Origin: Ectocarpus siliculosus
Taxonomy: Eukaryota; Sar; Phaeophyceae; Ectocarpales; Ectocarpaceae
Assembly (NCBI GenBank): GCA_000310025.1
Contig: FN649739.1
Coordinates: 1,816,370-1,880,369, forward strand
Direction: 5' to 3'
Length of the DNA: 64,000 nt
The notes under the pieces are model-generated. The model ran no database searches and was not told the DNA's origin. It saw only the letters and a program-made list of their open reading frames with translations. Each line of letters begins with the position of its first letter. Positions within the stretch are counted from its first letter, which is position 1. Both the position numbers and the translations under genes were made by a program. Positions 9,349 through 62,480 of the stretch are shown here, in pieces.

Positions 9349-12300
9349 ATGGTAAGGAGTGAGGAGTGTACATAGTGCCGAGGGATTGCATGGTAGTGTA
9401 GTACAGCAGTGAGCCACCAGCGTCGATCACACTTTCGAAGTGCAGCTCCGCGTATGTGGATGTGAAATAAGTGGACCGCGTAGACTACTACCTGCACGCA
9501 AATCATTCAGTACAGCTCAAAAAAGGTTATGAATCGTCCACCCGCGACAGGCGCCCAAGAAGAAAGGAAACAAGCACCATCCGGACGGCGATGTACAAAC
9601 CGGCGGTGGCAAAGGGCGTGACCAGTATGGTCGGAAATTCGGCAAGAAGCATGCATCCGCGATGATGGAGTTCACCAAAACGCTGTGGATGCAGGATGCG
9701 ACAACATCTCTGCGCAACATCCTCAAGAACGAAGTTGCTCAGGTAACGTCAAACGCGTGACTCTTCTAGATGGAGAAGACATGCTCTTAGATGACTTGTG
9801 AGCGCTGTCTGAAATGATCCAACCCTCAACACGCAGTCAATACCAAGACTGATGTTTTCAACCCCCACCGTGATGCTGAATTTGTTGAAGATGCGACTCA
9901 TGTACACCATTCATTGTTAGCATCCATTGTGATGTAACTCTCGTTTCACCGGCGTGACCAAAGAACCCCTCGCTGGATATAGACATATTCTAAGCCCAGT
10001 ATTCATTGTTACGTTTCATCGCGTGTACCAGCAGCATGCCAACAAACTTAGGTGTGTGCGGACATGTCGAGCATTGTTTTCGCCGAGCCGTAACTGTGTT
10101 GGAGCCCGTTCTGTCGCGAGGCTGGCTAGCACTACTGTTACGCCCCTGGAGTGGACAATCTTCGGCTGTACGGAGAGTCAAGGCACATTCTTCGCAGCTT
10201 TTCAACCGCTTGCCCTAGCAAAATGGAAGAGGATAACCTTTCCTGTGGTAATCTCTAGACAATCTGAACGATTATGATCCATCACAGTTAGACTACTACT
10301 GCTGTAAGCGGCACCGAGACTAAAACTTTTCGCGCCTAGTAACCACAACGTTTCAACGCTGTCGCTTACCCGCAGGTTAAATTTCGCGAGTTCCTGTCCA
10401 CTGAGTATGGTGAAGCGCAACTAGACTTTCTGCTCGAGGCCATGAAGCTTGAGAAGCTCGATGCCGGCGAGCAAGACCAGGCAGCAACCAAGGCAAGTTC
10501 TTTGACGGTTTACCTGCCTGCTCTCAAGGGCTGGTATGTACATGTAGTGGAAGAAGGAAACGCAAGTTGGAATCTTGTCGCATCGCCTTTGTCCTTTGCG
10601 AATGTTAATGACCGCGAACCCTATCCCAAATGCCCTTTAGGTGTACAAGGAGTTCGTGGCAGCGCAGGGCGCGGGAATCGGGCAGCAAGACCGGACAAAA
10701 GGAACGCAGCAGCTATGGGACTTTGCCAACTCGTCGCAGGTAGGCACGTTCGTGCTTGCTTAGTGGCCCTGTACACCCCACAGCACCACCTCAATAGTTC
10801 CCCGCGAGCAAAAGCCCGCTGGCTTCGTAGTAGCGTCACAGGCCTCTCTCTGTGGTTATTCCTACATATTTAAACACGAAGCGTGCGATGCCATGAAGAC
10901 CGTGCGCCCACGCAGCTTTCACGCAAGTGGACACCAGCGTCTTAGGAGAAAGGGAAGCACGTTATTTGGCTTTTGGTGGTGTTCTCTGGAATAACATAAG
11001 TTTCGCGCCGTAGATTCGTCAGTTGTTTGCTTGAATGTGTGGTTGAGCAATATGTTCCCTCTTAAGTAACTGTTCTGCGTACATGATACTCCAAGGTCCT
11101 GCTCATCTTTGACCTAGCTATCCCTCGCATAATCGTTCGTTTTGCGTTTTGAATGGGAGTTTTTTTGACATGAAGTGAACCAACGAAAGGATATGCTGAA
11201 TTGCACCACTTTTTCCCGTGACATTTCCCCTCCTCACCCGCGGCGATATAGGTAAGTAGAAACAAACCCACTTTAAACAATCGCTGCCTCAACGAAATGA
11301 CTAACCATGTCAAACTACTCTCATCGGTTTCCTGTGGGGGCTGTCACAGGGTGAAACCCTTGAGCCTGGCGTGGCGATGCAGAAGGTTCAGGAAGAAGCT
11401 GAAACTACCCTCGGCATGCTGGCATTTGACGCATTTCCGCGATTTCTGAAGTCAAAATACAGCAAGGCCGTCATGGAAGACCTCAAGACAGGGTCGAACC
11501 CCAACGAGGTGAACTGTTCAAAGATATTCATTAGAGGTGACCGACGCTCGCGTGGTTGGTCGGGAATGCGACCCCTCTTTTGTTCCGTACATGGTGATAT
11601 TCGTGAAAGAAGCGGACAGCAGGTCCTTCTTGCTCTTGGTGTTTTCGTTCTTCGTTGCCCAACACTCTCCGAAGAGGGTGGTGGAAGACTGTGGAGCACG
11701 TACAAAGGCCAGTCCCTCGGTTGGCCACACCTACTGTGGTCGTTGGATAGTCGGTCATTGCGCTACGTGTCGTTGTCTCGGTCAATTCCACAGGTGGCTG
11801 CTCTCGAAGGAGCTATCAACACTTCTGAATCGAAGCAACCTGGCGACGCTGACGAATGGCTAAACATGTTCGTGTCCACCGCTGAGTTCTTCCCGGCGTG
11901 CATCGTCATCTCCGACATGACCATCCCTGGTGCCCCCATGGTGTACATCAACGGAGAGTTCACCAAGACCACCGGCTACACCAAGGAGGAGGCGGTCGGA
12001 CGAAACTGCCGTTTCCTCCAGGGTCCAGAGACGGAGCCCGAGTCCATCGCCGTCATCCGCAACACCCTCTCCAAGGGTCAGGACTGCCACGTTAAGCTCA
12101 CCAACTACCGCAAGAATGGCGAGAAGTTCCAGAACCTCCTGTCCATGAAGCCTGTGTTCGACGCAGATGACATTTACCGGTACGTGATCGGCGTGCAGTT
12201 CGAGATCCTCCAGGACGAAGGGTTGAAGAAGCGTCTGGTGCAGCTGGACAAACTCCTGCGCCTGCTTCCTAGCCGACTGAACCTCAAGTCCAAGGCTAAG

Positions 12301-14532
12301 GCTAGAATGAGGGGAAAGATGGCTTCCAAAACGAACGGCGAGGTGTGTCTCGGGCCTTCTACTCCGATGCTTCCACGGCAACCGGCAATGCTCTCGAAAT
12401 TGTTTATGATGGAAAAGGATGTTGTAGCACGTCGGATTAGTGACGAGCTGCAGTCGAAACCCTTGGTGCGTTCATGACCAGGAACGAATGTATTTTTGCG
12501 GACGTGCCCTCCATCTTTGCGCTCATGCCTGGCTACCGCTCCTCGTAGGCAAACTCGGCGTTGCAAGACAAGGAGTCTATTGTCAAAGCTGAAGCTGCTG
12601 AGGGCGACGCAAGTATGTCAGGCCCAAGGGCTATGGTCGAGGATGAGGTGCGTATTGTTCCTTCCTCGGTCCGCAAGTATGCTACCATTGCCACTCTTTG
12701 TTTGTCAACTCTGAAAAGATTTGGTTTTGGTTCGAACTGCCAACAAACGAAATATTCAGTATTGTAACAATTTCACACCAGCTTCTGCCTTCGATTTTAA
12801 CCCCCTGTGCGTGTACCGGCGACAGGTTGACATGGACTGCGCCCACATGAACTTCGACAACACGATATTTTCGTTCACGAGAATCATGTGGCTCAGCAAC
12901 CCGACCAAGTACCTTTCTGCCCTCGTGGCCGACTGGCCATGCCGAGCGGTCCTGTCCGAATTCGTCAAGACGTGTTCCGTGGTGTACGAGGGTCACTTCG
13001 AATTTTTCGTGCAGGTAAAAAACTGTTTTGCAGCCCGGTACACCATTCGACCAGGCTAGCGATGTATCAACAGTACTAAATGGCGCCAACTTTCAAGCTT
13101 TTGTACCATGCCCCTGCATTTTGGCTCGCACGGCACATCCCACCCGGACTTCCAACTTCCAAGAACAATTTACGTTTCCTGCGCAGTCCGAAGTGCTCCG
13201 CAACACGCCAGCTGGGGACAAGGAAAAAGTGTCGAAGGCTATGCACCGAGTCATGGACCACAACCAGCTGTTCTATTGCACCAACAACGAGATCGTGGTT
13301 GGCGACATGCCCAAGACCAACATGGACCCGATCCACGCCGAGGTACGCGTGATTTATGGTGAAATTCCTTCCTCGGCTTGATTTGGGCTCATTTAGACTG
13401 CCTGGAGTTCGCACTCTGTCGTGGTTTGAGCCGGTTGAGTGACGGGGTGACCCACACGCGAACTCACTTGACTTCATTATGAGATGGCCTACATATGGCC
13501 TACATCCCCGATGGCGCGTGACCTCGCAGATTGAGATGAAGGCACAACAGTCTCTGTACTTCTTGGCACAAGACATGTTTCCTCGCTTCCTGAACTCGAG
13601 GTTCGGGCTGTCTCTCATCAAGCAGCTTCGCGCGCGTGAAATTGCTGGGGAGAAGGTGAGGGGTTATTTCGATATTCCTCGTCACAGTAGCAGGGAGGGA
13701 TTGACGGGTTGTAAGCTCGTTTTTTCGCCAGAACGTGAACAACGCCTCAAGACACCCCCTTGTGCCACTCTTTTCGTGCCAGCCGCCAATCAACACCGTC
13801 GCTCTAGACAAGAGCTCGAGTTCTTCGCAGTTCTGGCTGGAAATGTTCAAGACCATGTCTGAGACGGTATCCGTCGGGATGGTGGTGGCCGATATGAACG
13901 TCCCTGGGTGTCCCCTCGCCTACATAAACGAGGGATTCAAAACTGTCACCGGTGAGAAAAAACATACGAATCCAGACTGCCACATGGTGGTTCCACAATT
14001 CCCAGGAATGAAATGCGACCGAGGGCTGGTCCGTTCATTAGCACTTGTTTTAGGTATCTTTGTGCCTCTTGCGCACAACATCAGACGTGATCTCCATCAT
14101 AGTCGTGTCATTCCTCGCCCTCGTTGTCACCGTCGTGTCACCTGTGATTTCGTTTCGAATCCTCTTTTTGATATTTTCGTGAAATACCAAGGCTACGGCA
14201 AGGAGAACATTGGACGCAACTCCAAGTTCTTGCAGGGGGAAGAAACCGAGGGGTACATGGTGGAGGAGATCATGCACGCTCTGCAGCAACACGAGCCCCT
14301 GTGCTGCAAGCTTCACAACCACAAGGCTGACGGCCGGAAGTTCCAAAACCTCCTCTGCCTCCACCCTGTCTTGGGCAAAGAAGGGGAGTACCTGTACCAA
14401 GTGAGTAAACCTCTCAAGTACGTTCGTCGGTTATTGCTTCAGAAATTCGTCTCGTACAAAACTGCAAGTCCCTTAGTGCCACTTTCATTCCTTCGCTCCT
14501 CTTGACAACGTTCGTGCCCTTGCACCCTCTAT

Positions 14533-14574
<42 letters not shown>

Positions 14575-17500
14575 CCATCTTCTTTCATCCACCGGCGGTA
14601 ATAGATCGGCATGCAGGTGGAGCTGCATTCGCACCCCGGCATGATGGCACAGATCATGGAGATGGAACGAGTCCTGCGTCTCTTACCAAGCTGTGTCACC
14701 GGAGACAGCGGTGATGTGAGCCCAAGATACGCAACAGGAAGCAGTCAAATACCATCGTTAGAAAACACATACCGGTATCCTCGTACAAGCACTTCTTTCG
14801 GGAAAACGATGTTTGTGTTAAAATTGTTTGTGTTCCGGCGCTTGTCGGCCCTCCCTTTCATCTGCCAGGACATCCAACGCATAATCCCGGTGGATTACAC
14901 CGGCGACGGAAACTTGCCTCCCCGTGTGTTGGACATGTCGGCTATTCCATCGGCCGGGTCTGGAGCGGGGGGGGGTATGGCGGGGGGTATGATGGGTATG
15001 CCTGGTATGGGTATGCCTCCGTCCGCGGCCGGAGGTGCGGCAAAGGCTGCTGACCAAGAGGTTGGGGATCAGATCAAGTCCGAAATCACCGTGGGTGGCA
15101 AGAAGAATAAGACTCACTATGGGAAGAAATTCGGGAAGAAGCACAAGTCTGCCATGCTCGACTTCACCAAGTCACTGTGGATGCAGGATGCTGCTGCATC
15201 TCTCAAAAATGTTCTCAAGAGCGAGGTAAGCTCCCTGTTCGACCAAACACCAGCCATATGCAACTTCAGCAACGTGATGGTAATACTGTACATTGTTGTT
15301 GTACGTCGTCTCTTCGAACCATAGGCCAGGGGAAAACCCAAATGGTGTGTAGTGCGTTCGTATTGATGGCTATGGCGAACGTTGATCAGACTCCTCTGAC
15401 CGTCTGCATCGACCATTTCCCAACAGGTGGCGCAGAAACAGATGCTTGCCTTCTTGGGGACCGAGTACGGCGACGCCCAGCTTGAATTCTTCCTTGAAGC
15501 GCAGAAGATGGCCGACCTCGAAGGACAGGCACAGCAGGACGCTGCCCTGAAAGTTTACACTCAGTTCGTTGCAGCCCAGGGGTCAGGCATAGGGGCCCAA
15601 GACCGCACCAAAGGAACCCAAGAGCTTTGGGACAAGTGCAACAAAGAAGCTGGTGATACGGTAGACGGCCCCGCTGCTGTCGCGATTGTGGCCGACGAGG
15701 CAGAGAAGACCCTCAATATGCTCGCCTTCGATGCTTTCCCCCGGTTCCTGAAGTCCAAATACTGCCAAGCCGTCATGGACGACCTCAAGAAGAAATCCGG
15801 CGGGGACGTGAGTAGTGCGTGGAATGTGTATATGTTTGGCGTCTTGATATTCATTTCGTGCCTCATCCTAGATGTATTCGTTTGGAAGCTCACCCGCCGA
15901 TCAAACGAATAAACGGCATTAACGGCATCCCCGGCTGTTCCCGGTCCCTGATCTTGATACACGTGAAGTCGTCGGCACTGGAGGGTGCACTGTCCTCAGC
16001 TGGGTCCAACATGCCTCAAGACGCGGACGACTGGCTAAACATGTTCATCTCTTCGGCCGAGTCATTCCCGGCGTGCATCGTCATCTCCGACATGACCATC
16101 CCTGGTGCCCCCATGGTGTACATCAACGGAGAGTTCACCAAGACCACCGGCTACACCAAGGAGGAGGCGGTCGGACGAAACTGCCGTTTCCTCCAGGGTC
16201 CAGAGACGGAGCCCGAGTCCATCGCCGTCATCCGCAACACCCTCTCCAAGGGTCAGGACTGCCACGTTAAGCTCACCAACTACCGCAAGAATGGCGAGAA
16301 GTTCCAGAACCTCCTGTCCATGAAGCCTGTGTTCGATGGAGACAACATTTACCGGTACGTGATCGGCGTGCAGTTCGAAATCCTTGAAGACAAGGGGTTG
16401 AAGAAGCGTCTGGTGCAGCTGGACAAGCTCCTGCGCCTGCTTCCTAGCCGACTGAACCTCAAGTCCAAGGCGTCGGCTCAGGCACGTGGCGCTTTGGCAG
16501 CGAAAACAACCGGTGAAGCCAACACTATGATTTCCGCTAAGGAGCAAATCCTGAGTGCTGGCGAGCAACGGGAAGAGAAAGAGGCAACGGCAGGCGGCGC
16601 CCGTCCCAAGCAGAAGTTCAAGAAGAAAAAGAAGGCCGCGGGGTAAGTACAGTCGCTTGCGCCAGCCAGCATATACGTGAAAAAGTGTTTTTAGGTCAGC
16701 ATACCTCAGCAATATGCGTGCAAAGACCACTGGAAGCCCCTCTGAATCGTCGGGCATTTGCATGCTATTTTTCTCCCTTTGCAGTGCGGCCCAGGCCGAC
16801 AACTACGATGGTACAATCTTCGCCTTCACGAAGATCATGTGGCTGCAAGACGCCGCTACCACGCTGCGATCCATGCTTATGGACCAAGCAGGCTTCATGG
16901 CGTTCGATGGCTTCCTCAAGCAATGTGGTTCCCAATTGTCGCAGACGCACCTGCGTTTTTGGGTTGAAGCGCAACAGATTCTGATGTCCCAAGGACCGCA
17001 GCAGGTTGGTGTCAAATGCGTGCAAATATTACACAATACTCGGCAAACGCGTTCACGTTAGTTTCGAGCAACAGAGACGCACACCTAAAAGGTATTCCAG
17101 CACAACCACCCAGCTCGCTGTAGTTGCTACCCTCTGACGACAAGCTCCCGAACCACCCTTATTGGGCTTGGGAGTGTTCCTTTACATAATATCATTTTCG
17201 AGGAATCATTCCAGCAAAGAAGCATGAGTTTCTTGGAACTTCCTTTCTAGAGCACCTGGACTTTTTCATTCACGAAGCTGTCAAAAAAGACTCCTGCCCC
17301 AGGATCTGGGCTCCACTGAACGGTATCCATGTACTCCTTCACGAACTCGAAACATCTGCCAGGTTAAAGCCGCCCGGCAGTTGCACATGCGGATGTGGAA
17401 GAACTCGCTCTTCTACTGCACCACAAACGAGATCGTCATCGGCAATCTCAATCGCACCGGGTGGCCCCCCCTGATCCAGGAGATGGCTAGGTATTGGCCA

Positions 17501-20309
17501 GATTTTAATATCTTAACGGAGGTGTCGACCATGATACCTAGAGAGCGTCGTAAACGTGGCACAATAAAATGATTAAGGACTCGTTCCCCGAAACAATATG
17601 ACCGAATCTGAGCCCATCAGGCAGTTTATGGGGGCGTCCGCCACAGGATGGTGCTTTACCATGGATGGTTGCGTGCACTGTGGTCCATTCGCCCCCGAAT
17701 TCCAGGTGGCAGGAACTGAGCCTGTACTTCCTGGCGCAGGACTGTTTCACCCGCTTTATGGAAGCCCCGCAATCCCGCGAGTTCGTGTATGCTCTTGTGC
17801 AGCGCGAGGTCAACGGAGAACAACTCCCCGTCAAGACTGTCTCCTTCGGGCTGGTCAGTTCTGCTACTCATCGTGCCCTAGTTTTGTTCTGTCCGTGTCT
17901 GCAAGTCACCTGTGGTTGGATCTTGGGCGTTTTTCAGTCACAATGGGCGATTGCTATATTAGTATTGTGTTTTGTGGATTTGCCGCCAACAATGTCAACC
18001 GAGTGGGTGGAAGTCTTGTTACCGCGACGTCGCACTTAAAAGTAGGCAAGGAAAGTATGAATGCATGTGTGTTCCTAGCACTGTTCTTACAGCCTAGAAT
18101 GACATATTTATCTCTTCCAGGATCCGGAGTCCCCGGGATACTGGATGGACATGCTTAAGGCGATGTCAGAAACCCTACGAATCGGGTTGGTGGTCAGCGA
18201 CATGTTCGTCCCGGGTTGCCCGTTGGCATACCTCAACGAGGGCTTTGCTGCCCAAACAGGTACTACTTGCGCGTCCGGCTAAATACGCGATAATTCACCG
18301 TCCGTATCAACGGCGTTCACCATTAAGAGACGACTTGTTGGAACGGTGTTGCCAAATAGGTACCTAAATTTCCCCCGACATTGTGTGTACACTCGGAACT
18401 GTTTTGCTGGTGGCGGACCCTGAGAGACGTAATCCACCTACTTTTTATTTTATTTACCATTTGCAGGATACGGCAAGGAGAACATCGGGCGTAACTCCAA
18501 GTTCCTTCAGGGCCCCATGACGGAGGGTTACATGGTCGAAGAGATCGTCGAATCGCTGCGCCACGCTGACCCGCTTTTCTGCAAGCTGCAGAACCACAAG
18601 CCAGACGGTTCTGTCTACCAGTTGTGTCTGTGCCTGACGCCCGTCTTCAACGTCGACGGTGAGGGTGGAGAAGTCCTCAACCATCGTATTGTTAGGAATT
18701 CGTTGTCGTTCACTTTGCATCAACAATTTTTTTTTGACCAGTATCTGTTTCCGTACTCTTCGGAGGCTTTTTCTTTGACAAAACGTCACCATCAAGAAAT
18801 CTTAAGTGACAATCACAAAAAAGAAGGAACACGAAAGGCCAGACAAAGTCGCACCACCCGCAAACAAACAGTGTGACAGCCAGTAGAACCACAAGCAAGC
18901 CTAGAAAATTAATTCCAAAGGTCTGTAGCGGAGCACAGTAGGCTGGGAAGTTGAATCCTGGCGGTGTTCATGTTCCTTGCCGTACCTAGTACTACGTGTG
19001 GGGAACTTGAGGAAAGGGTAACTGAACCCTTCTCACGTTAAAAAGTGGGGCACCCTAGGTGGGAGCACCTCTGATAGAGGCAAGGCCGAAGGGTTGGTGG
19101 AAACTGCGAAAAACGAAAGTAAAGGAACACAGGCAAGGCAAAGAAAGATGTCGAAATACCAGTAAGCAGAGTCCGGTGGTCCACCCGGAAGCTGAGTCAC
19201 ACACACATGAATACTACGGGGATACCGTTCAATTTTGACAATTAACCAGAAGAAGCACCCTCCCCCACGGAGCCAGGGAGTATTTCTAGTCCGGCTTTGT
19301 TTCCACGACCAGTCCAACCCCACCCCAGCCCCCGAGGTGTTGTTCTATTTGACTTTTGTTCAGCACCTCTCCTTCCCTGTTCTTCAAGGTCCCCATTCCG
19401 ATCCATGTAACCTACGCAAACTTGAAGGCAAAACAAGATTGAACACATCATGCTCTATGTCCTAGACCAAGTGACATCTCCACGCGCCATTGTGCTACAC
19501 AATATGCCCAGATTTTCGACACGGATGTAGGTGGACTTGTATCTGAACGGAACACATTCATTTTCCAAAACATTTATGTTGTGCAGTGAAGCTCCTGTCC
19601 TGATGCCCCCCTATGAAAAGCATGTTTTCCGCCATATTTTGTGCTGTCTGACGTTTGTTTGCGTCAGCCCTACTTTAATTTCTACAAGCAGTCCGTCATC
19701 GCTGTGTGTAAAATGCTTCTTCTTTCATGTCGGTTACCTCCAAACCGATACGTTTTCTCCGTTTTATTGTATGCATAGGAGAGTACAAGTATCAGATTGG
19801 CTGCCAGGTGGACTACGACCCGAACAACCCGGAAACGCCGATGTTCATCATGGAACTCGAGCGGGTCGTCAGGAACTTGCCCCAGACGATCACAGGGGAG
19901 ACCCCAAAGGCCATGCCCACCCGTACCCAGGTATGTGTTGTGGAATTCCATTTCCATTACGTACGTACAAGGTAGTTGTAAATGTGTTCCGGTGAACGTC
20001 CCGTGCCTTTCAATTACAACTAACCCAAGCCCGTCGGTGCTGTAAATAGCGTAGGATATACCCCGGCTCCGGAAATCCGTTTCTATCTACCCTCTGGACG
20101 AAGTCAAACTCACGTCGCTCACGGGGGTTGTTTCTCCGTGCGTTTGCTCGGGTCAACCGCTACTACAGGAGCTAGAGGACTTCCTCGCGTCTATAACCGC
20201 CGGCGGGACGGGTGCTGGTCCAGGAGGGCTGACGGCTACACCACCGTCGGGAAGTGCCCCCTCTGGTGGAGGGCACCCCAGGCCTGGCGCCTCGTGGACG
20301 CCCGCTTAA
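9349..20309 (+). CDS. Giant photoreceptor with four tandem RGS-LOV modules
   Basis: Coding exons: 9349-9351 (ATG only), 9551-9742, 10376-10492, 10641-10739, 11350-11508, 11794-12342, 12549-12647, 12826-13014, 13187-13342, 13530-13655, 13783-13951, 14192-14400, 14605-14715, 14869-15225, 15427-15807, 15969-16642, 16785-17004, 17363-17490, 17706-17853, 18121-18259, 18467-18658, 19779-19930, 20169-20309. They join in one unbroken frame of 1,569 residues. Domain order by rough residue: RGS1 45-185, LOV1 200-320, RGS2 407-563, LOV2 570-705, Gly/Met-rich linker 727-790, RGS3 800-970, LOV3 990-1105, RGS4 1205-1360, LOV4 1363-1500, Gly/Pro tail. RGS signatures are FPRFLKSKY, FLSTEYG and FLGTEYG. LOV1 and LOV3 keep GRNCRFLQG; LOV2 and LOV4 read GRNSKFLQG. 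Known families: RGS domains accelerate GTP hydrolysis by G-alpha; LOV domains bind flavin and sense blue light. The inferred role is light-regulated G-protein signalling. Intron 10493-10640 uses a GC donor. The start is the least certain part. A split into two genes is possible, but exon 14869-15225 bridges modules 2 and 3. Confidence 0.85.
9551..11508 (+). other. RGS domain 1 (module A1)
   Basis: Four exons encode a basic lead-in (GRKFGKKHASA), the first helices (FTKTLWMQDATTSLRN), a FLSTEYGEAQLDFLLEA segment matching the RGS alpha-4/5 region, and the closing FDAFPRFLKSKY helix. The same protein stretch in module A2 is nearly colinear but sits in only two exons. Confidence 0.8.
11794..12342 (+). 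other. LOV domain 1 (module A1), photoactive type, with basic tail helix
   Basis: One exon of 183 codons. The adduct cysteine codon is TGC at 12007-12009 within GRNCRFLQG. The flavin-contacting Asn and Gln positions are present (NYRKNGEKFQN and IGVQFEI). After the core, LKKRLVQLDKLLRLLPSRL and a run of Lys/Arg form a predicted amphipathic, basic helix. Bases 11890-12161 are identical to 16065-16336. Confidence 0.9.
12826..13655 (+). other. RGS domain 2 (module B1)
   Basis: Three exons carry FSFTRIMWL, FVKTCSVVYEGHFEFFVQ, the insert HNQLFYCTNNEIVVGD that typifies the B modules, and the closing FLAQDMFPRFLNSRFG helix. It is divergent from RGS1 and RGS3 but colinear with RGS4. Confidence 0.75.
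13783..14715 (+). other. LOV-like domain 2 (module B1), cysteine replaced by serine
   Basis: Three exons; a phase-1 intron splits the TG-Y motif just before GRNSKFLQG. The codon at the adduct position is TCC (14221-14223), Ser instead of Cys. The Gln of the last strand is kept (IGMQVEL), so flavin could still bind. The acceptor of the first exon is one of three possible in-frame sites (13732, 13783, 13841). A GCTT microsatellite of about nine units (14530-14573) lies in the intron before the last exon. Confidence 0.8.
14869..15807 (+). other. Gly/Met-rich linker and RGS domain 3 (module A2)
   Basis: The first exon joins the end of module B1 (DIQRIIPVDYTG) to a linker of repeated GGM/GMP units and then to the basic lead-in and first helix of RGS3 (YGKKFGKKHKSA, FTKSLWMQDAAAS). 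The second exon (15427-15807) holds the rest of the RGS domain, which in module A1 is split over three exons. The intron before this exon pair (14716-14868) is 153 bases with no stop in frame. Confidence 0.8.
15969..16642 (+). other. LOV domain 3 (module A2), photoactive type, with basic tail
   Basis: One exon of 224 codons. The adduct cysteine is TGC at 16182-16184. The core is identical to LOV1 over 91 residues. The tail repeats LKKRLVQLDKLLRLLPSRL and then becomes very basic (FKKKKKAA) before a gtaagt donor; without splicing the next codon is TAA. Confidence 0.9.
16785..17853 (+). other. RGS domain 4 (module B2)
   Basis: Three exons (16785-17004, 17363-17490, 17706-17853) with FAFTKIMWLQDAATTL, the B-type insert KNSLFYCTTNEIVIGN and the closing LYFLAQDCFTRFMEA helix. 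A stop-free piece around 17250-17360 looks exon-like (DFFIHEAVKK) but is not needed for frame continuity and may be a relic or alternative exon. Confidence 0.75.
18121..19930 (+). other. LOV-like domain 4 (module B2), cysteine replaced by serine
   Basis: Exons 18121-18259, 18467-18658 and 19779-19930. The motif is GRNSKFLQG with TCC at 18496-18498. The phase-1 intron at the TG-Y motif is shared with LOV2. The 1.1-kb intron 18659-19778 contains the second copy of the dispersed repeat. The next exon adds a Gly/Pro/Ser-rich tail and the stop. Confidence 0.8.
18920..19045 (+). repeat. Dispersed repeat, copy 2 (possibly SINE-like)
   Basis: Lies in an intron of the RGS-LOV gene. It has a B-box-like agttgaatcctgg and the same purine block, ctgaaccct and taaa ending as 850-1045. 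Confidence 0.3.
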
Positions 20310-46935: not shown

Positions 46936-49900
46936 TTACCGACAATTTTCCTCTACAGCTTTCTTGATGGGTCTCGTTAACTTGGAAGGCAACATGGTGT
47001 TGTCTGAGTACACGTTGACCACAACCTTCCCCGAACCACCGTCGGCGGCGACCTTGATGAAAACACGCTCCGACATGGATCCAGCCAGGCTGCACGCCGA
47101 GAACCACCAACACGACTCCTCGACGGTGTCACTCGCCACCACCGCCGCATTCACTGCCCGGAGAACACGCGATGGAACTCTCGATATGTCGGCGGCTGGG
47201 ATCTGTTTCAAAATAGAAGATAACGAGCACGGCGGGACCAACAGGACACACAAGAATCAAGTGCACGTTTGCTTGAGATCTTCCGGCCTACTGAACCGCC
47301 GTTCAATGGGGTGATGGGCTGCATATACCATCGGCCGGCCGTATTTTCTACTTTTGCTCACCTGGCAATCCACTGAGTCGCGATCAAGTGCACCGAGCGA
47401 ACCCTGAACCCGCCGGAACTCTGCCCTCGAAACTGGCTCTGGGAACAGCAGCTCCTCTGGAGGAGGCTCGAGAGAAACCATGAAGCTGCCTTTGTCTGTC
47501 TTCAACTCGAAACGAACCTGTAAAGCAACGGCATCATTTGGATTCATGCCAGACGAGAGCAGTTAGAGTCATCCTACTCTCCAAGGTCAAGCTCAGTAGC
47601 ATGGCAGCATGGAGTGGTGCCGCGAAAGTACATGTTTGCCTCCACCGTATGCATACAAACCGGAAAAATCAACTGCTCATACTTCCCATCCATCAGGTAC
47701 GGGTGTGTCTGTGGTGCCGCGCTGATGTTTGTTGCCTCCACTCACATCTTTCGCCTTGCCGCCAAAGTCAATGCCCAAGTTCGCGGTCTGCGTGGCCCCT
47801 GCTGGCAACATCTGCATCTCCGGAAATGCCTCCATCGGCGTTCCGTCTCGCGGGGTGACGACGCGGATGCGTCGCACCGGCGTCTCGCCGTGGTTAGTGA
47901 ACGACAGGCGTAGAGTGAGGGTTGTGGACGGCCGAGACAAGGCGCTCGCCCTTCCGCGAGAAAAGCGGTAGTCCACTTGCAGCCCACCGCCGGCCTGATG
48001 GCGCAACAGCGTAGACGGGAACGAAGCGCTTGTGTCCCCCTCCGGATCAGCGCTTAGGACAGAGCTTGTGGATGACGTTCGCCCCAGCGATATGGCTCCG
48101 GCAGCGCCCAGCGCAGGAGCCACCGGTCCTCTGATCCCCGCCGTGCTGAGCGATGCCAACCCCGCCCCTGCTGGCACTCCCAATCGAGGAGAGGCGCTGT
48201 CTTCCCTATCGGCGACGCTCATTCTTTCTACGAGGCCAGTCAGATCTTGAGTATGGGGAGCGGGCGCGCTGGCACCATACGTCGTGGCGGCAGCGCTGCT
48301 GGTCGAAGAGCGTGGCCCCATAATAAGGAGGCCCACCCCCTCCTCCCCCTTGGTCCCACTGCTCTCGCTGTCATCACCCGAAGAGGAGTAACTACTGCTA
48401 CTTCCCACAGACGAGTCCGACTCATCGTCTTCGTCGTCGGACGATTCTTCAGAACCCGATCCCGACTCTTCGGAGTCTGAACTTTCAGACCCAGACTCCT
48501 CCTCTCCTCCCGATGTCGAAGCTGAATCGTACGAGTCCGATTCAGATCCATCTTCCGAGCTGTTCTCGGGACTGCTCCCACTGCCGCTGCCGCTCTCACT
48601 CTCACTCTCGCTCCCGCTGCCACTTCCAGAGTAGAAATCGCTGTTGACCTGACGCCCCTTACCCTTGCCACCGCTACTGCGAGTGGGAGGTGCCAATGCT
48701 CGTGGCTCCTCTTTCGGAGGTTCTCTCGCCGAACCGTCCGGCTGCACGCTACACCAATCAGGAATCGGGAGGTATCCGTTGATGGGGTGGCCGACGATGG
48801 CGGAGAGAGTACCGAGCACGAGGTGGGACCCTGCCTGGGCTGTGGACCTCCCGCTCCCGCCACCGTCTGCTACCGGTGGTGGTCGGCGTTTCAGAAGCAC
48901 CTGATGCAGCAGTAAACGCCCAAACAACAAGCGGGGACGCAGAAATTACGAGTGCGTCACAGAAAGGGTGTAATCCCCGCCCCCATCGCGCCACACAACA
49001 TTGCTCATATCTGAAGCACATGCGATGCACTCTATTATAAGTCCGTACCTGTCCAGCCTTGGCGTGAAGCGCCAACAAGGCCGCCTCGTCGACCCCTTCG
49101 TCAGCAGTAGCTAGCCCAAGCATCGCCGTCATGAAACGAGCCCTGTCCCGGAGGTCGTGCGATAGGTCAAACCTGGCCATCTCGAGCACAAACGACGCCA
49201 GTGACTGCACTCGCGTGTCCTCCGCTTGTCGCAGAGCAAGCTTGACCGAGAAGTTAAGGACCTGCGCATGTGTGTAGACAAGGCAGTGCAGGGCACGCTC
49301 GTTGGTTGGTCGGGCTTTGCTCTCCAAACGGTCCAACGTTATACAATCAAGATGACGAATCAATTCCTGCAGCGAAATGTTATCGAAAAAACAGTGTGTA
49401 ATACTACCTATGTGCAACAAGTAGGCACCACAGTCTGACGTCCAAAACGACAGCCTACGCCCATCCAAAGAACAAAGACGGCCGACACCGCGCACCTGCA
49501 TCTTGACCTCCTCTTCTAGCTCCGGGAAAGCTTTCGCCAGCACCCTCAAAACATCCGGCGCGACTCCCGAAATGTGCTGGTGATACTCACCGAGGGTCCA
49601 GATTATGGATGCTCTGGCGCCGGGTTGTGCGAGGCTGGCCCTGGCTGCACTCGCCACCGCAAGGGCGTTACCGCCGCCCTGGTCGTTTTCGCCTGCTCTG
49701 CCTCCACCCTTTTCTTCTTCAAGCGAAGGGTCAAGGAACGACTGCAGAAGAAGCACCGAGAGCCGTCGCACCACGTCCCCCGAGCCCTCGAAGTTGGGAT
49801 TCTGTTGGAGCAGCTGCCGCAGCACGATTACCGCCTCAGCCACCACCACGCTCGTCTTGCTGCACGTAACGAGCGTCAGAAGCCCCTGAGGAGTATAGTA

Positions 49901-52900
49901 AGAGAGCGGGTGACGGAACGAAACGAAAAAAGGCTGAGGGTAGCTCTTTTCGCCGAACATTGCGATCGATATATGCATACTGTGTCGGAGAAAAAAGTGG
50001 CCGTCTACTGCACCCCGTGTAATAGCAACAAAACTCGAAACAGCATCGATGTGATGATTGCTGTTCAAGGAGAAACTTCATCAACGCCCGGAACAAATGG
50101 AGCTGCATAGTCTTCAACTTTTAGGCTGAGCTCCTAACCAATACTCAGTATGTATAGTCTCACTCACGTGCAAGCATTGATCCGCAGCCTCCGGCCTGGC
50201 GTCCGCGACACGCCCCACCGCGCGCACCGCAGCGCACACGAAACTCTTGTCCCTGTGGAGTACATAGGTCTGCAGCTCTCCTAGAATGGTGGCGCAATTT
50301 TCTTTGGTCACAAGCGCGGTGAGGACGTCCAGCTTCAGGGTGCACGTGAACAACGGGTCTGCCGCCTTCACGAAAAATTCCTGCAGGAAGGGCCGAAAGA
50401 CCGACGGGCTATCTGCCACCATCGTTCTGTGAGCCAATCGCGACAAGATAGTGATGGTGGTAAGAGGGCGGGAAAATGTAGACGGTGAGCAAGAAACGTC
50501 ACCATGGTAACAGGTCGGGCGTGTTTTCGCGTGTTGAATATGGCTTAACATCATGTCATGCAAAGGGTCACACAACAGTGCAGTACACCACCATTCTTGG
50601 CCATGTAAACCGTACTAAATCCCGTGCGAAACACAAACAACCAGGCGTGATCAAGGAACCAACGCACCAAAGCACCCCACAAAAACATAAGAGCCACACC
50701 CCCGCGCGGGGAATGCCTCACCTGATGGCGTCCAACACCACGAACTGGATCTCTCGGCGATTCCGAAGGATGCGCACCATCGCCTTCGCTATTTGATTCA
50801 TGGTGCTGCCAGTTCGTGAGCTGCAGTAGAAATGTGCCGTGCACACCGCTAACACTACACCGCTGTTGCGCGACTTGAGTAGAGGCAGAGAACACCTGCA
50901 CATGGGCGTCGTAAGACAGGCGGATATGAGCGTGCGAGTATTTCCCCGAAGAAAGAACCAACAAGAAGTGACGATTCCATAAAACAGGGCTGCCTGCAAA
51001 TGGACTGCGCATTGGACCAAGGAGTTGCGGCGCATAGCAGAGTAGCACACAGCATCAAGATCAACACGTTCGTCTCGCATGTGTGAATGATGCCATGAGG
51101 AGAGCACAAGAGAATCGCCATGTGCATATCAGTGTCGCAAAGGGTAAGGGTTGTAGACCAACCTGAGGAGCAAGCGATGGTCCGGGTCCAGGTCCGCGCC
51201 AAGATCAGCATCGCTCGTCGTGAACACCGAACCCACCTGCGAATGATAGATGGGCGCGGGAGTTTTCTCTTATATTGTCATAAATAGGGGTTCGCACATT
51301 GACGTGTGGCCTCTCTTCTCGAATCAGAAATGCTCCCAGAGTTAGTGATTCTCCCAGCCCCGCAAATTCCCGTAGGGAAAAGGTTCGCAGAGTTCCAGTT
51401 CACGCTTGTTGCGTAATAGCGTACTGATACTTGCCATGCCACAAGCACCTGCACAAGCAATAGGACTCACCTCAGGTGCAGCGACGGAGTTATTTTTCTC
51501 TTCGAACTCTTCCTCCGTGCTTTCGTCCTCCTCGCTAGAGTAGAAGGCACGTTTCACCACACGTCGCTTCACCTTGGGGCCGTATCGCGCAATGCCATGT
51601 CATGCAATACAATGCAACGCAAGAGGATCGCCGTTGACGGCGAATAGGAAGGTGGACGGGGCATTCGTGTTTCCGCACAGTACGCGTATCCGCCAAAAGT
51701 CGTCAATATGCACCCGTCTGGTCTCAGCATGGCTGGACTATAACCTACGCGTAAGGTGGCGGAGTGGAATCATCGGTAGATGAGTGCTCACCTTTTGGGG
51801 AGGCTGGTTTGAGTTTGAGTCCGCAGGCTTGCTGATACCCCCTGCATCGCTGAAACCGCCCTGGGGGTTAGTGAAGTGGCTGCGCACATACCGCTGGAGA
51901 GCCGCCAGCATAGCCATCTGCCCCCACTCATCTACGTCGGCCAGCAAGTGACACAGCTTTCGGTAGACTGGGTGTAGCAGTTCGAACTTGTTCGGACACA
52001 CCTTTGTTCTCGAGTCAGCAAGTACAAAACAGAAAGCAGAAACGGGGACTTTTTATATGAGAACGAGATTCATCCCTCACGACCAAGCAAGGAGACACCC
52101 GCCCGCACGTTGAGGGAAGAAAGTTGAGAAATTGCCTTGCCTAGGACGGGTTCATTCCAGTCAGCATGACCATACAACGCAATACGAACCTCAGTGAAAG
52201 CTGCGACAGCGCTTCCAAGTACCATCGTGTTGCTGTCCTTGAGCAACTGTTCCACCACCTGCAAGCGAAAAGGGGAAAAATTTCCGGTCAAAAAACGACC
52301 ATCAAGATCAGATGCATCGCCTCACTATGTGCAGCTGGCACAACTTGGGGCATTCGAACCAAGGCGAACCAAAGAGAACCAAAGCAAGAAAGTCGTCTTG
52401 ATGAACGACTACCGAACTTGTCCATCCCCACGCCGGACGATGACGGGGCTACGAGCAAACAACGCGAGTTGAAACACACGAACAAGCTGAGCTCGCTAGC
52501 CCGTCCGTCCATGTGGTCTCACCTGCCAAAGCTGGGGGGCCTGCTCTGGGTCCAGCACGAAAATCTTGGGGACGGCATTCGCCGCGCACTTGCGAACGTA
52601 GGGAGAGCTGTCGGCGGCGCAGTCACGAACTGCCAGCTGCGTTTGGGTGTCAAGGGGGAAAGGCTGAATCTCAGGCGGGACGAAATGTCGCAGTCTTCAT
52701 TAGGGTCAACCGCTACATATTCAACAATGACATATTTATCGAATCTTAAGAATGGTTTTGGAAATTATACTCTAGCCTTCACGCCACAAAGATTGTTCAG
52801 CTTCTATCCACCCTCACCGTGTGGCCCTGACTGCGGGAAAGAAAGCGGCGGAATTCACAAACGTATGCATCGAGTGTGCATCTACGGCAACAAACAATCG

Positions 52901-60068: not shown

Positions 60069-62067
60069 TCAAGACGAGCCTTCCCCTCGCCGCCCGAAAA
60101 CGCGCAACACCTTAGTGAAGCGGACGGCGGGCACGCAATCGCCGTCGCGTGAAGGTGTTGGTTGTTTTTGCCGCTCTTTCTCCGCCTGATGCTGCTGCTT
60201 CCGCGACTGCCGTGTAGGTGTTGCTCGTTGTGATAGAGACTCGAAGAAATGTTCCGTTTCGTATGCCAGATGCTTGGCACCTTTAAACTTCGTGTGGAGC
60301 GCCACCCTGCCGATCACAGGACCGGTAGTTCCACTCTTCAGGAAGTCGTGCTCCGAACCGCTCCTTATCTCGACAATAACTTTGTCGGTAGGACTCGCGA
60401 GTGTTGCTTCTTGAGGGCGGGCCCCGACGATTGCTGCCAAAGAGAAATGGATATTGTGTTCGCTTGGTGTCGATGACGCATGAAGCTCTTGTTCGGGTGC
60501 CGTTGATTTTTCTTTCTTTTTTCTTGGTCGTACTGCGTTTACCACGCATCCGAGCCGAGAGATTCCTTGGCGGAGAGCGTTGGCGATGCTTCGATCGTGC
60601 TCGAATTCCACGCGGTCTTCGACACATGGCGTAAGCTCTAGTGACGGAAATTCTGCCTCACGTGCATCCAAGCACTCGCGTATAGTCGGCTCCATCGCCA
60701 AAAACTGGTCACCGTGTAGGCGTTCCAGACTCGTGTTCGTAGAGTCTAAAGCAATTTCGTATGCCCTCATAACTTGCCCCAGCTTTGCCAACTGTGCGTT
60801 CAAGTCCTGGGTTTTTTGTGCCCGATCAGCTCGCAAATTCTGGCAACGGTTTGAGACACAATGTTCGTATGCAGGGGAATAAGCACAGAATTGTTTAGGA
60901 AAGTTGTGAGGTGCATGACATGATCACGGCAGGCCACCGTATATCGATAGATGAGCAACACCACTCCAAGACAAGTCTACCTTGAGAATTTCCTTCTCCC
61001 TGGAGTCCACAGCTGCACGAATTGCTGAAAAGGCTTGCACTGTAGCGCTTTCGGCCAACCGCGTGTGCTTCTCCACCCCTGTTTTGACGGCCTCCACCGC
61101 GTCCAACCCACCGCGCACTCTAGCTAATCTGTCAGCAAACACAAATAAGTAAAGATCGACCATAGACTAACGTGTCAGGGCGACCCCACGTTCTTGTGCG
61201 TTAAAACATTTACTCCGAAGAGGGCACGCTACACGTACGAGAGTTCAACTGCTAGACTAGTCCAACAAAGCATATGCTGTGCGCACGGTTTACCTGGTTG
61301 GTGCAGAAAACGCCGTTTGCTGAACAGTTCTCAACTATTGGTACGTACTAGCTGCAGTAGGCGCGAGTGCTCTCACGGGTGCACATACTATACGTGCAAC
61401 TCTTTTTTTGTCGTTCGGGGTCGCACCTGTGACCCAAAGAAACCCCACGACGGGTAAGGCCGGCACGATGTACTTGTTCCACTTCGGCTGAGTCGGAAAA
61501 GAACACGCTGTGGCCCGAGTGCTCAGCGACACTACAATTGTGGCAAATGGTAGTGCCACAAGGCTCTGAGCAGAACAGCTTTGCTTCAACGTCCCTGTGC
61601 CGAGCGCATGTGATCTGAACACGATGGGAGGCCTCGCGGTTTTTCAAGGAAACAACACGGTGCGATTTTGTGCCTCTCGACACGGAGTGGGCAGTCATGT
61701 GGAATGTGCAGAGGAGGCTCGCACACTCATGGCACACATGAGAAGCTTTGGCGACGTCGTCGCAGAAGTCGCAATGACTATTTTTCCTGTGGACATCTTG
61801 CAGAGCCACGATGTTGTCTTGAAGAGCCGAGGTAGAAGTCACGTCGGAGGTCGACACTCCGCACAACGGGCACATGATCGATGAACCATCTTTCGACCGC
61901 TGAAGCCCTTCCTCTGCGCAATTCTGGCAGATCGTATGCAAGCAACCTTTCAGGACCTTGGGAATGTGTGAGAATGTGAGGTCACCCCCGATCGCCATAT
62001 CTCCTCTAACGTGAGTCAAAAGCGCACGACGGAAAAGCAAGAAAATTGTAGATTGCATCGCGATCAT
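60069..62067 (-). CDS. TRIM-like protein: partial RING, two B-boxes, coiled coil
   Basis: Exons 61427-62067, 60981-61128 and 60069-60839 give 519 residues; ATG at 61998 is an alternative start. A RING-like part reads KGCLHTICQNC followed by MCPLCG, but the first Cys-x2-Cys pair is absent from this frame. Two zinc-binding B-boxes follow (CDFCDDVAKASHVCHECAS with CTFH, then CARHRDVEAKLFCSEPC with ICHNC and EHSGH). The second exon is an Ala/Glu/Arg coiled coil; the third is coiled coil, then basic and Gln/Lys-rich, ending GRRGEGSS. TRIM proteins are typically ubiquitin E3 ligases or scaffolds. Missing RING ligands mean either a lost upstream exon or a ligase-dead scaffold. Confidence 0.7.
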
Positions 62068-62480
62068 TGCACACGTCAGGTGGCGGAGAGCAGGAGAATC
62101 GTGTCCTACACGACATCATCACTACATGTGGTGCCCCACATTGTAAACGCCGAGATGCATGAATGAATCAAGTCAAGACCGGTAGATTATGCAAAAAAGT
62201 TTGAGTTGCTGCGTAAGAGTGGTTTTCACGCCGGAAAGAACACAAGTGCACGCACAATTGTAGTTTATTGCATCGCGATCACTGCAAATGTCAGGCTTAC
62301 AGGAGAACGATAATCATGCCCAACAACACCACACTTGTCGGGTAAGATCTATCTAGTAGACAACAGCAGCAGTACCAAGATCGTCACATGTGGTGCACCA
62401 CGTCGTCATCCCCAGATGCCTAAATGCAATCAAGGCCGGCATGTAAATATCCGAGCTGTTGTGTCAAGTGTTGTGTGTAG
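62048..62480 (+). repeat. Divergent tandem duplication, about 215-base unit
   Basis: 62048-62220 and 62262-62480 share gcatcgcgatcattgca/gcatcgcgatcactgca, catgtggtg near the middle, agatgc(at/ct) and a related ending. It spans the presumed 5' region of the TRIM-like gene. An ATTGTTGTTG microsatellite lies just downstream (62602-62626). Confidence 0.45.

Follow-up and report, generated by a model that had tools for sequence, protein, structure and literature searches.

The swimming cells of brown algae turn towards light, and the green fluorescence of their flagella has more than one candidate protein, among them an Old-Yellow-Enzyme-like flavoprotein described in PMC2781859. A locus of Ectocarpus siliculosus in which RGS and LOV domains alternate raises the question of what kind of receptor it encodes: one protein or two, with four equal light-regulated modules or with modules of unlike kinds. 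The locus lies in a window of 64,000 nucleotides (the whole stretch of DNA that was analysed) on contig C14 of the searched genome, which comprises 189 Mb in 492 contigs.

The coding span was rebuilt by hand and by script, using splice sites and reading frames, with the same outcome, 23 exons on the forward strand giving 1,569 codons (Table 1), and this rebuild yields the same stop-free model as the first-pass annotation. The joined frame ends with a TAA codon at 20307-20309, contains no internal stop over the 23 exons and is in phase at every junction. Among the 22 introns, 21 are of the GT-AG type and one, intron 3 (10493-10640, donor GCAAGT), is of the GC-AG type, its donor being the sole GC donor of the set. 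Exon 1 consists of the ATG alone. Of 14 in-frame pairings of an upstream ATG with a donor, four pass a loose donor filter, and only the ATG at 9349-9351, a plausible but provisional start, is followed by a GTAAG donor. A pseudogene was rejected in view of the absence of stops in all 23 exons together with low dN/dS. Intron 12 includes a short run of a (TTGC)n-like repeat (14530-14575), and an antisense open frame of 246 codons (16065-16802, reverse strand), probably a by-product of codon use, faces the LOV3 exon.

Table 1. Features of the RGS-LOV gene; positions are those of the window.
Feature	Position	Strand	Details
Whole coding span	9349-20309	+	23 exons, 1,569 aa; joined phases, splice sites
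Exons 1-6	9349-9351, 9551-9742, 10376-10492, 10641-10739, 11350-11508, 11794-12342	+	
Exons 7-12	12549-12647, 12826-13014, 13187-13342, 13530-13655, 13783-13951, 14192-14400	+	
Exons 13-18	14605-14715, 14869-15225, 15427-15807, 15969-16642, 16785-17004, 17363-17490	+	
Exons 19-23	17706-17853, 18121-18259, 18467-18658, 19779-19930, 20169-20309	+	
RGS1 (aa 35-184), exons 2-5	9650-11490	+	Pfam RGS 37.5 bits, E 3.4e-9
LOV1 (aa 224-329), one exon	11893-12210	+	PAS_9 65.6 bits; adduct cysteine aa 262 at 12007-12009
Basic tail after LOV1	12211-12342	+	net +9 in 45 aa, running on into exon 7
RGS2 (aa 415-563), degenerate, exons 8-10	12850-13655	+	similarity to module-4 RGS; hhalign
LOV2 (aa 594-696), exons 11-13	13873-14625	+	PAS_9 29.6 bits; serine aa 630, TCC 14221-14223
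Intron 13, between modules 2 and 3	14716-14868	+	153 bp, multiple of three, in-frame stops 0
RGS3 (aa 818-967), exons 14-15	15142-15792	+	Pfam RGS 27.3 bits, E 5.1e-6
LOV3 (aa 1006-1111), one exon	16068-16385	+	PAS_9 64.4 bits; adduct cysteine aa 1044 at 16182-16184
Basic tail after LOV3	16386-16520	+	net +7 in 45 aa
Module-4 RGS (aa 1203-1352), degenerate, exons 17-19	16801-17823	+	Pfam RGS 16.9 bits, E 0.0087
LOV4 (aa 1383-1485), exons 20-22	18181-19816	+	PAS_9 22.0 bits; serine aa 1419, TCC 18496-18498
272-bp tract	11890-12161 = 16065-16336	+	272/272 bases identical

The first-pass annotation had read the protein as an RGS-LOV order repeated four times and had proposed a profile search of the joined sequence. 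With Pfam, the curated cut-off of PAS_9 (27 bits) is exceeded in modules 1-3 and that of RGS (23.9 bits) in modules 1 and 3, whereas module 4 stays under both (E 2.1e-4 for PAS_9) and the search of the joined protein reported no RGS match in module 2. The four modules stand, with RGS2 entering the order by the indirect route of hhalign and profile matches. In what follows, RGS1-RGS4 are domains of this gene, as distinct from the reference protein RGS4, whose numbering is taken from the full-length chain 1agr_E. RGS2 and the module-4 RGS are 35% identical to each other, and an hhalign comparison of the RGS1+RGS3 alignment with the RGS2+RGS4 (module-4) alignment gave a probability of 96.8. The profile of RGS1+RGS3 matches solved RGS4 protein structures at E 9.8e-8, and that of RGS2 with the module-4 RGS matches the solved RGS18, RGS2 and RGS4 proteins, with a best E of 1e-4. 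The predicted structure of part of exon 14 (14965-15225) has a mean pLDDT of 60.1 and adds no usable support.

LOV1 matches solved LOV domains with a best E of 4.6e-28, and a chance PAS match was rejected on this value. Both LOV1 and LOV3 carry the motif GRNCRFLQ, in which the adduct cysteine (GxNC) is present, and in LOV2 and LOV4 the motif is GRNSKFLQ, with serine at the cysteine position. The model of the YtvA LOV photoreceptor matches LOV2 (E 1.4e-26) and LOV4 (E 1.4e-18) over its LOV part alone, far under the full-length cut-off; it fits the two domains better than generic PAS, which argues for LOVs with a lost cysteine and not for ordinary PAS domains. As judged by motif and profile, LOV2 and LOV4 are LOV relatives, not adduct-forming LOVs.

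Modules 1 and 3 (kind A) are 68% identical in protein sequence (276/405 aligned residues); for modules 2 and 4 (kind B) the figure is 46% (146/316). A phase-1 intron at TG/YGKEN is common to LOV2 and LOV4 and absent from the single-exon LOV1 and LOV3. A LOV tree of 30 rows, which include 24 LOVs from prokaryotes and a further two from the same genome, and in which some branches are long and the deeper forks weak, groups LOV1 with LOV3 (97/86) and LOV2 with LOV4 (100/99), with all four together (93/90) in the tree as drawn. This pairing of A with A and B with B in identity, introns and tree argues that an A-B pair was doubled. Read from its sequence, the array is ABAB and not four equal modules, an unlike pair having apparently formed before the doubling.

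The tails after LOV2 and LOV4 are acidic (net -4 each in 45 aa), as against the basic tails after LOV1 and LOV3. The best 18-residue amphipathic moments of tails 1-4 are 0.44, 0.41, 0.48 and 0.62; an amphipathic 18-mer is present in all four and the moment peaks in tail 4, which leaves charge as the only distinction between the two kinds. The BcLOV4-type feature of a basic amphipathic segment after the LOV domain is present in modules 1 and 3 only. In 45-residue windows from about aa 800, the stretch before RGS3 equals tail 3 in basic charge. The predicted structure of the LOV3 exon with its tail, for which the LOV1 exon was the only partner, has a mean pLDDT of 38.7 and lends no support to a tail helix.

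Searching the genome with modules 1-2 gave 20 matches, 18 within the RGS-LOV gene and two elsewhere. Read by eye, the two other LOV loci encode a bZIP followed by a cysteine-bearing LOV and are aureochrome-like. No second RGS-LOV locus was seen in this search, which by its nature cannot prove absence. RGS matches at E up to 1 number 19 genome-wide, six of them over the cut-off and two of the 19 in the RGS-LOV gene. Two pattern scans of viral contigs matched 75 and 88 stretches, none of which was confirmed as a relative. A scan of prokaryote contigs provided 24 LOV relatives, a sample biased by its choice through patterns including FLQG, in which the cysteine, scored by eye, is present in 17 and absent in seven; these seven have also lost the preceding asparagine, which LOV2 and LOV4 keep. 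In the alignment, LOV2 and LOV4 (aa 594-696 and 1383-1485) share further cysteines that are absent from LOV1 and LOV3, located in PGCPLAY, in PL[CF]CKL and in LCL before a conserved proline. Elsewhere in the window, the reverse strand has two long open frames (47680-50077), probably parts of one AP-3 beta gene, with matches to the C-terminal domain of the AP-3 beta subunit (E 6.8e-13) and to Adaptin_N (E 2e-11). Another reverse-strand frame (61351-62115) points to a TRIM-like gene; it matches the B-box zinc finger (E 1.8e-7) and, weakly, RING.

Two tandem genes that encode two-module RGS-LOV receptors (modules 1-2 and modules 3-4) and are joined only by the gene model would suit an array that is a duplicated pair, and an ATG does lie at 14935, inside exon 14, with which module 3 begins. 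The frame at 14605-15225 is nevertheless free of in-frame stops with intron 13 spliced or retained, and a hypothetical first gene would therefore have no stop in that interval; introns 5 and 11 share this property, having lengths divisible by three and no in-frame stops, so that intron 13 is not a rarity among the 22. Read-through into intron 12, which holds three in-frame stops, would let the first gene end in frame, but exon 13 would then be lost, and with it the final strand of LOV2 and the conserved glutamine in that strand. Exon 14 (14869-15225) joins in phase through standard splice sites, in keeping with the first-pass claim of a single gene. We regard two genes as highly improbable on this evidence, and one gene as much the better reading. 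Within the single gene, dS between LOV1 and LOV3 is 0.058, against a pS of 0.795 between RGS1 and RGS3 (79.5% of synonymous sites differ, a saturated value). Because the LOV cores share an identical tract despite saturated RGS partners, a recent gene conversion between LOV1 and LOV3, which would have copied the photochemical core, is likely. The same identity could be a copy error of the assembly, in which short intragenic repeats can be miscopied; yet the tract borders clearly different sequence, the adjoining stretch (12162-12296) is similar to its module 3 counterpart without being identical, as an older conversion would leave it, and the contig is long, with the window beginning 1.8 Mb into C14. 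Such an error is accordingly considered very unlikely.

Modules 2 and 4 might be decaying leftovers of duplication, without flavin or function, such that only modules 1 and 3 matter. The exchange of cysteine for serine in both LOV2 and LOV4, with the adjoining arginine changed to lysine, would fit decay, as would the exchange of asparagine for leucine in LOV4 and the weakness of RGS2 and the module-4 RGS. However, the dN/dS of LOV2-LOV4 is about 0.17 (at a dS of 1.8, near saturation), which indicates that both cysteine-less domains are held by selection, and the loss of the cysteine is common to both copies and was therefore kept through duplication. By-eye mapping, through YtvA positions, of the nine other LOV residues given by Yee et al. 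2015 (PMC4682037) finds eight kept in LOV2 and seven in LOV4, which again speaks against decay, a reading that we consider unlikely. A different role for all four modules would follow if the RGS domains were true GTPase activators, with light shutting off G-alpha at each of four sites. RGS1 and RGS3 clearly belong to the RGS family, D163 and R167 of the RGS4 protein are matched in all four domains, and G-alpha genes are present in the genome (22 exon matches in at least five clusters). Residues E87/N88 and N128 of the RGS4 protein matter for GAP activity. At E87/N88, however, domains 1-4 carry AQ, GH, AQ and TH, the pair being kept in none of the four, and N128 is replaced by Q in RGS1 and by A in RGS3, at a point where the alignment is uncertain. 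The absence of E87/N88 speaks against strong GAP activity and for a binding or structural role; to judge from these residues, the domains are more probably binders than strong GTPase activators, and silencing of G-alpha at four sites is distinctly improbable. With two of the four LOVs lacking the adduct cysteine and no RGS domain retaining E87/N88, the array does not support a reading as four equal light-regulated G-alpha contacts.

On balance, we consider it probable that the locus is a single helmchrome gene with a doubled A-B pair, whose A modules (1 and 3) switch in light and whose B modules (2 and 4) are cysteine-less partners, and that its product serves as a phototaxis receptor at the posterior flagellum. 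Under blue light, only LOV1 and LOV3 would form a flavin-cysteine adduct. The adduct would free the adjoining basic amphipathic tail and shift the RGS domain, as in fungal BcLOV4, and with the tail freed the protein would grip the acidic flagellar membrane and change its contact with G-alpha or a scaffold. The B modules (RGS2-LOV2, RGS4-LOV4), forming no adduct, could be partners in dimerisation, in redox chemistry or in G-alpha binding, sensors of the flavin redox state, or stable fluorophores.

A bolder reading, to which we give little credence, is that of a mixed receptor in which the two cysteine LOVs switch, gene conversion keeps these switching cores alike, and the two serine LOVs are natural flavin-based fluorescent domains, one source of the posterior flagellum's steady green glow and possibly a light-driven redox reference or antenna serving the two switching domains. 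Normal LOVs bleach on adduct formation; those with serine would be spared this. The glow of phototactic flagella is described as steady, green and flavin-like (PMC2781859), and the presumably non-bleaching LOV2 and LOV4 are candidate sources for that reason. Against these putative flavin binders as the source of the glow, the fluorescent flagellar flavoprotein purified from Scytosiphon is reported in the same source as a relative of Old Yellow Enzyme. Within the open-licence literature searched, including PMC6685483 and PMC9308134, the alternation of cysteine and serine, the difference in tail charge and the conversion tract may be unreported. The alternating array offers precise residues at which signalling and fluorescence can be tested, and a natural multi-module RGS-LOV protein could be a template for light-controlled membrane tools.

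Helmchrome, which probably has several LOV domains, has the same domain content as the gene described here (RGS and LOV in one protein), as compared by description, and this content places the gene most readily among putative helmchrome-type RGS-LOV proteins. Helmchromes are described as RGS-LOV proteins of photosynthetic stramenopiles (PMC10967245), a publication that weakens the novelty that the first-pass annotation had seen in the array when it took RGS-LOV proteins to be known with one module. In PMC5795050, helmchrome is presented as a putative photosensor associated with the swelling on the posterior flagellum of brown algae, with CBJ26132.1 named, and is stated to be absent from Hyphochytrium. 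Aureochromes are described as confined to photosynthetic stramenopiles (PMC12558739), and the two aureochrome-like loci of this genome, read by eye, fit such an origin. As bZIP-LOV proteins, aureochromes are likewise LOV photoreceptors of photosynthetic stramenopiles, but are transcription factors with a single LOV and without RGS.

BcLOV4 has one module and one photoactive LOV, whereas the gene here has four modules, two of them without the adduct cysteine. Fungal RGS-LOV proteins such as BcLOV4 have RGS, then LOV, then a basic amphipathic segment, as do modules 1 and 3. As reviewed in PMC8993538, the RGS domain of BcLOV4 inhibits in the dark, and a polybasic amphipathic helix after the LOV domain is thought to be freed by light and to bind acidic lipid. 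For the B modules, the nearest comparisons are with LOVs deprived of their cysteine: flavin-based fluorescent proteins have been made from LOVs by cysteine removal, Cys to Ala (PMC3669411), and, according to Yee et al. 2015 (PMC4682037), photoreduction of the flavin can allow signalling by cysteine-less LOV-like proteins. The latter keep the LOV core and have the adduct cysteine replaced, as in LOV2 and LOV4. Ala, His and Pro are among the substitutes named there; in the gene here the residue is Ser, and the domains that carry it alternate with normal LOVs along a single chain.
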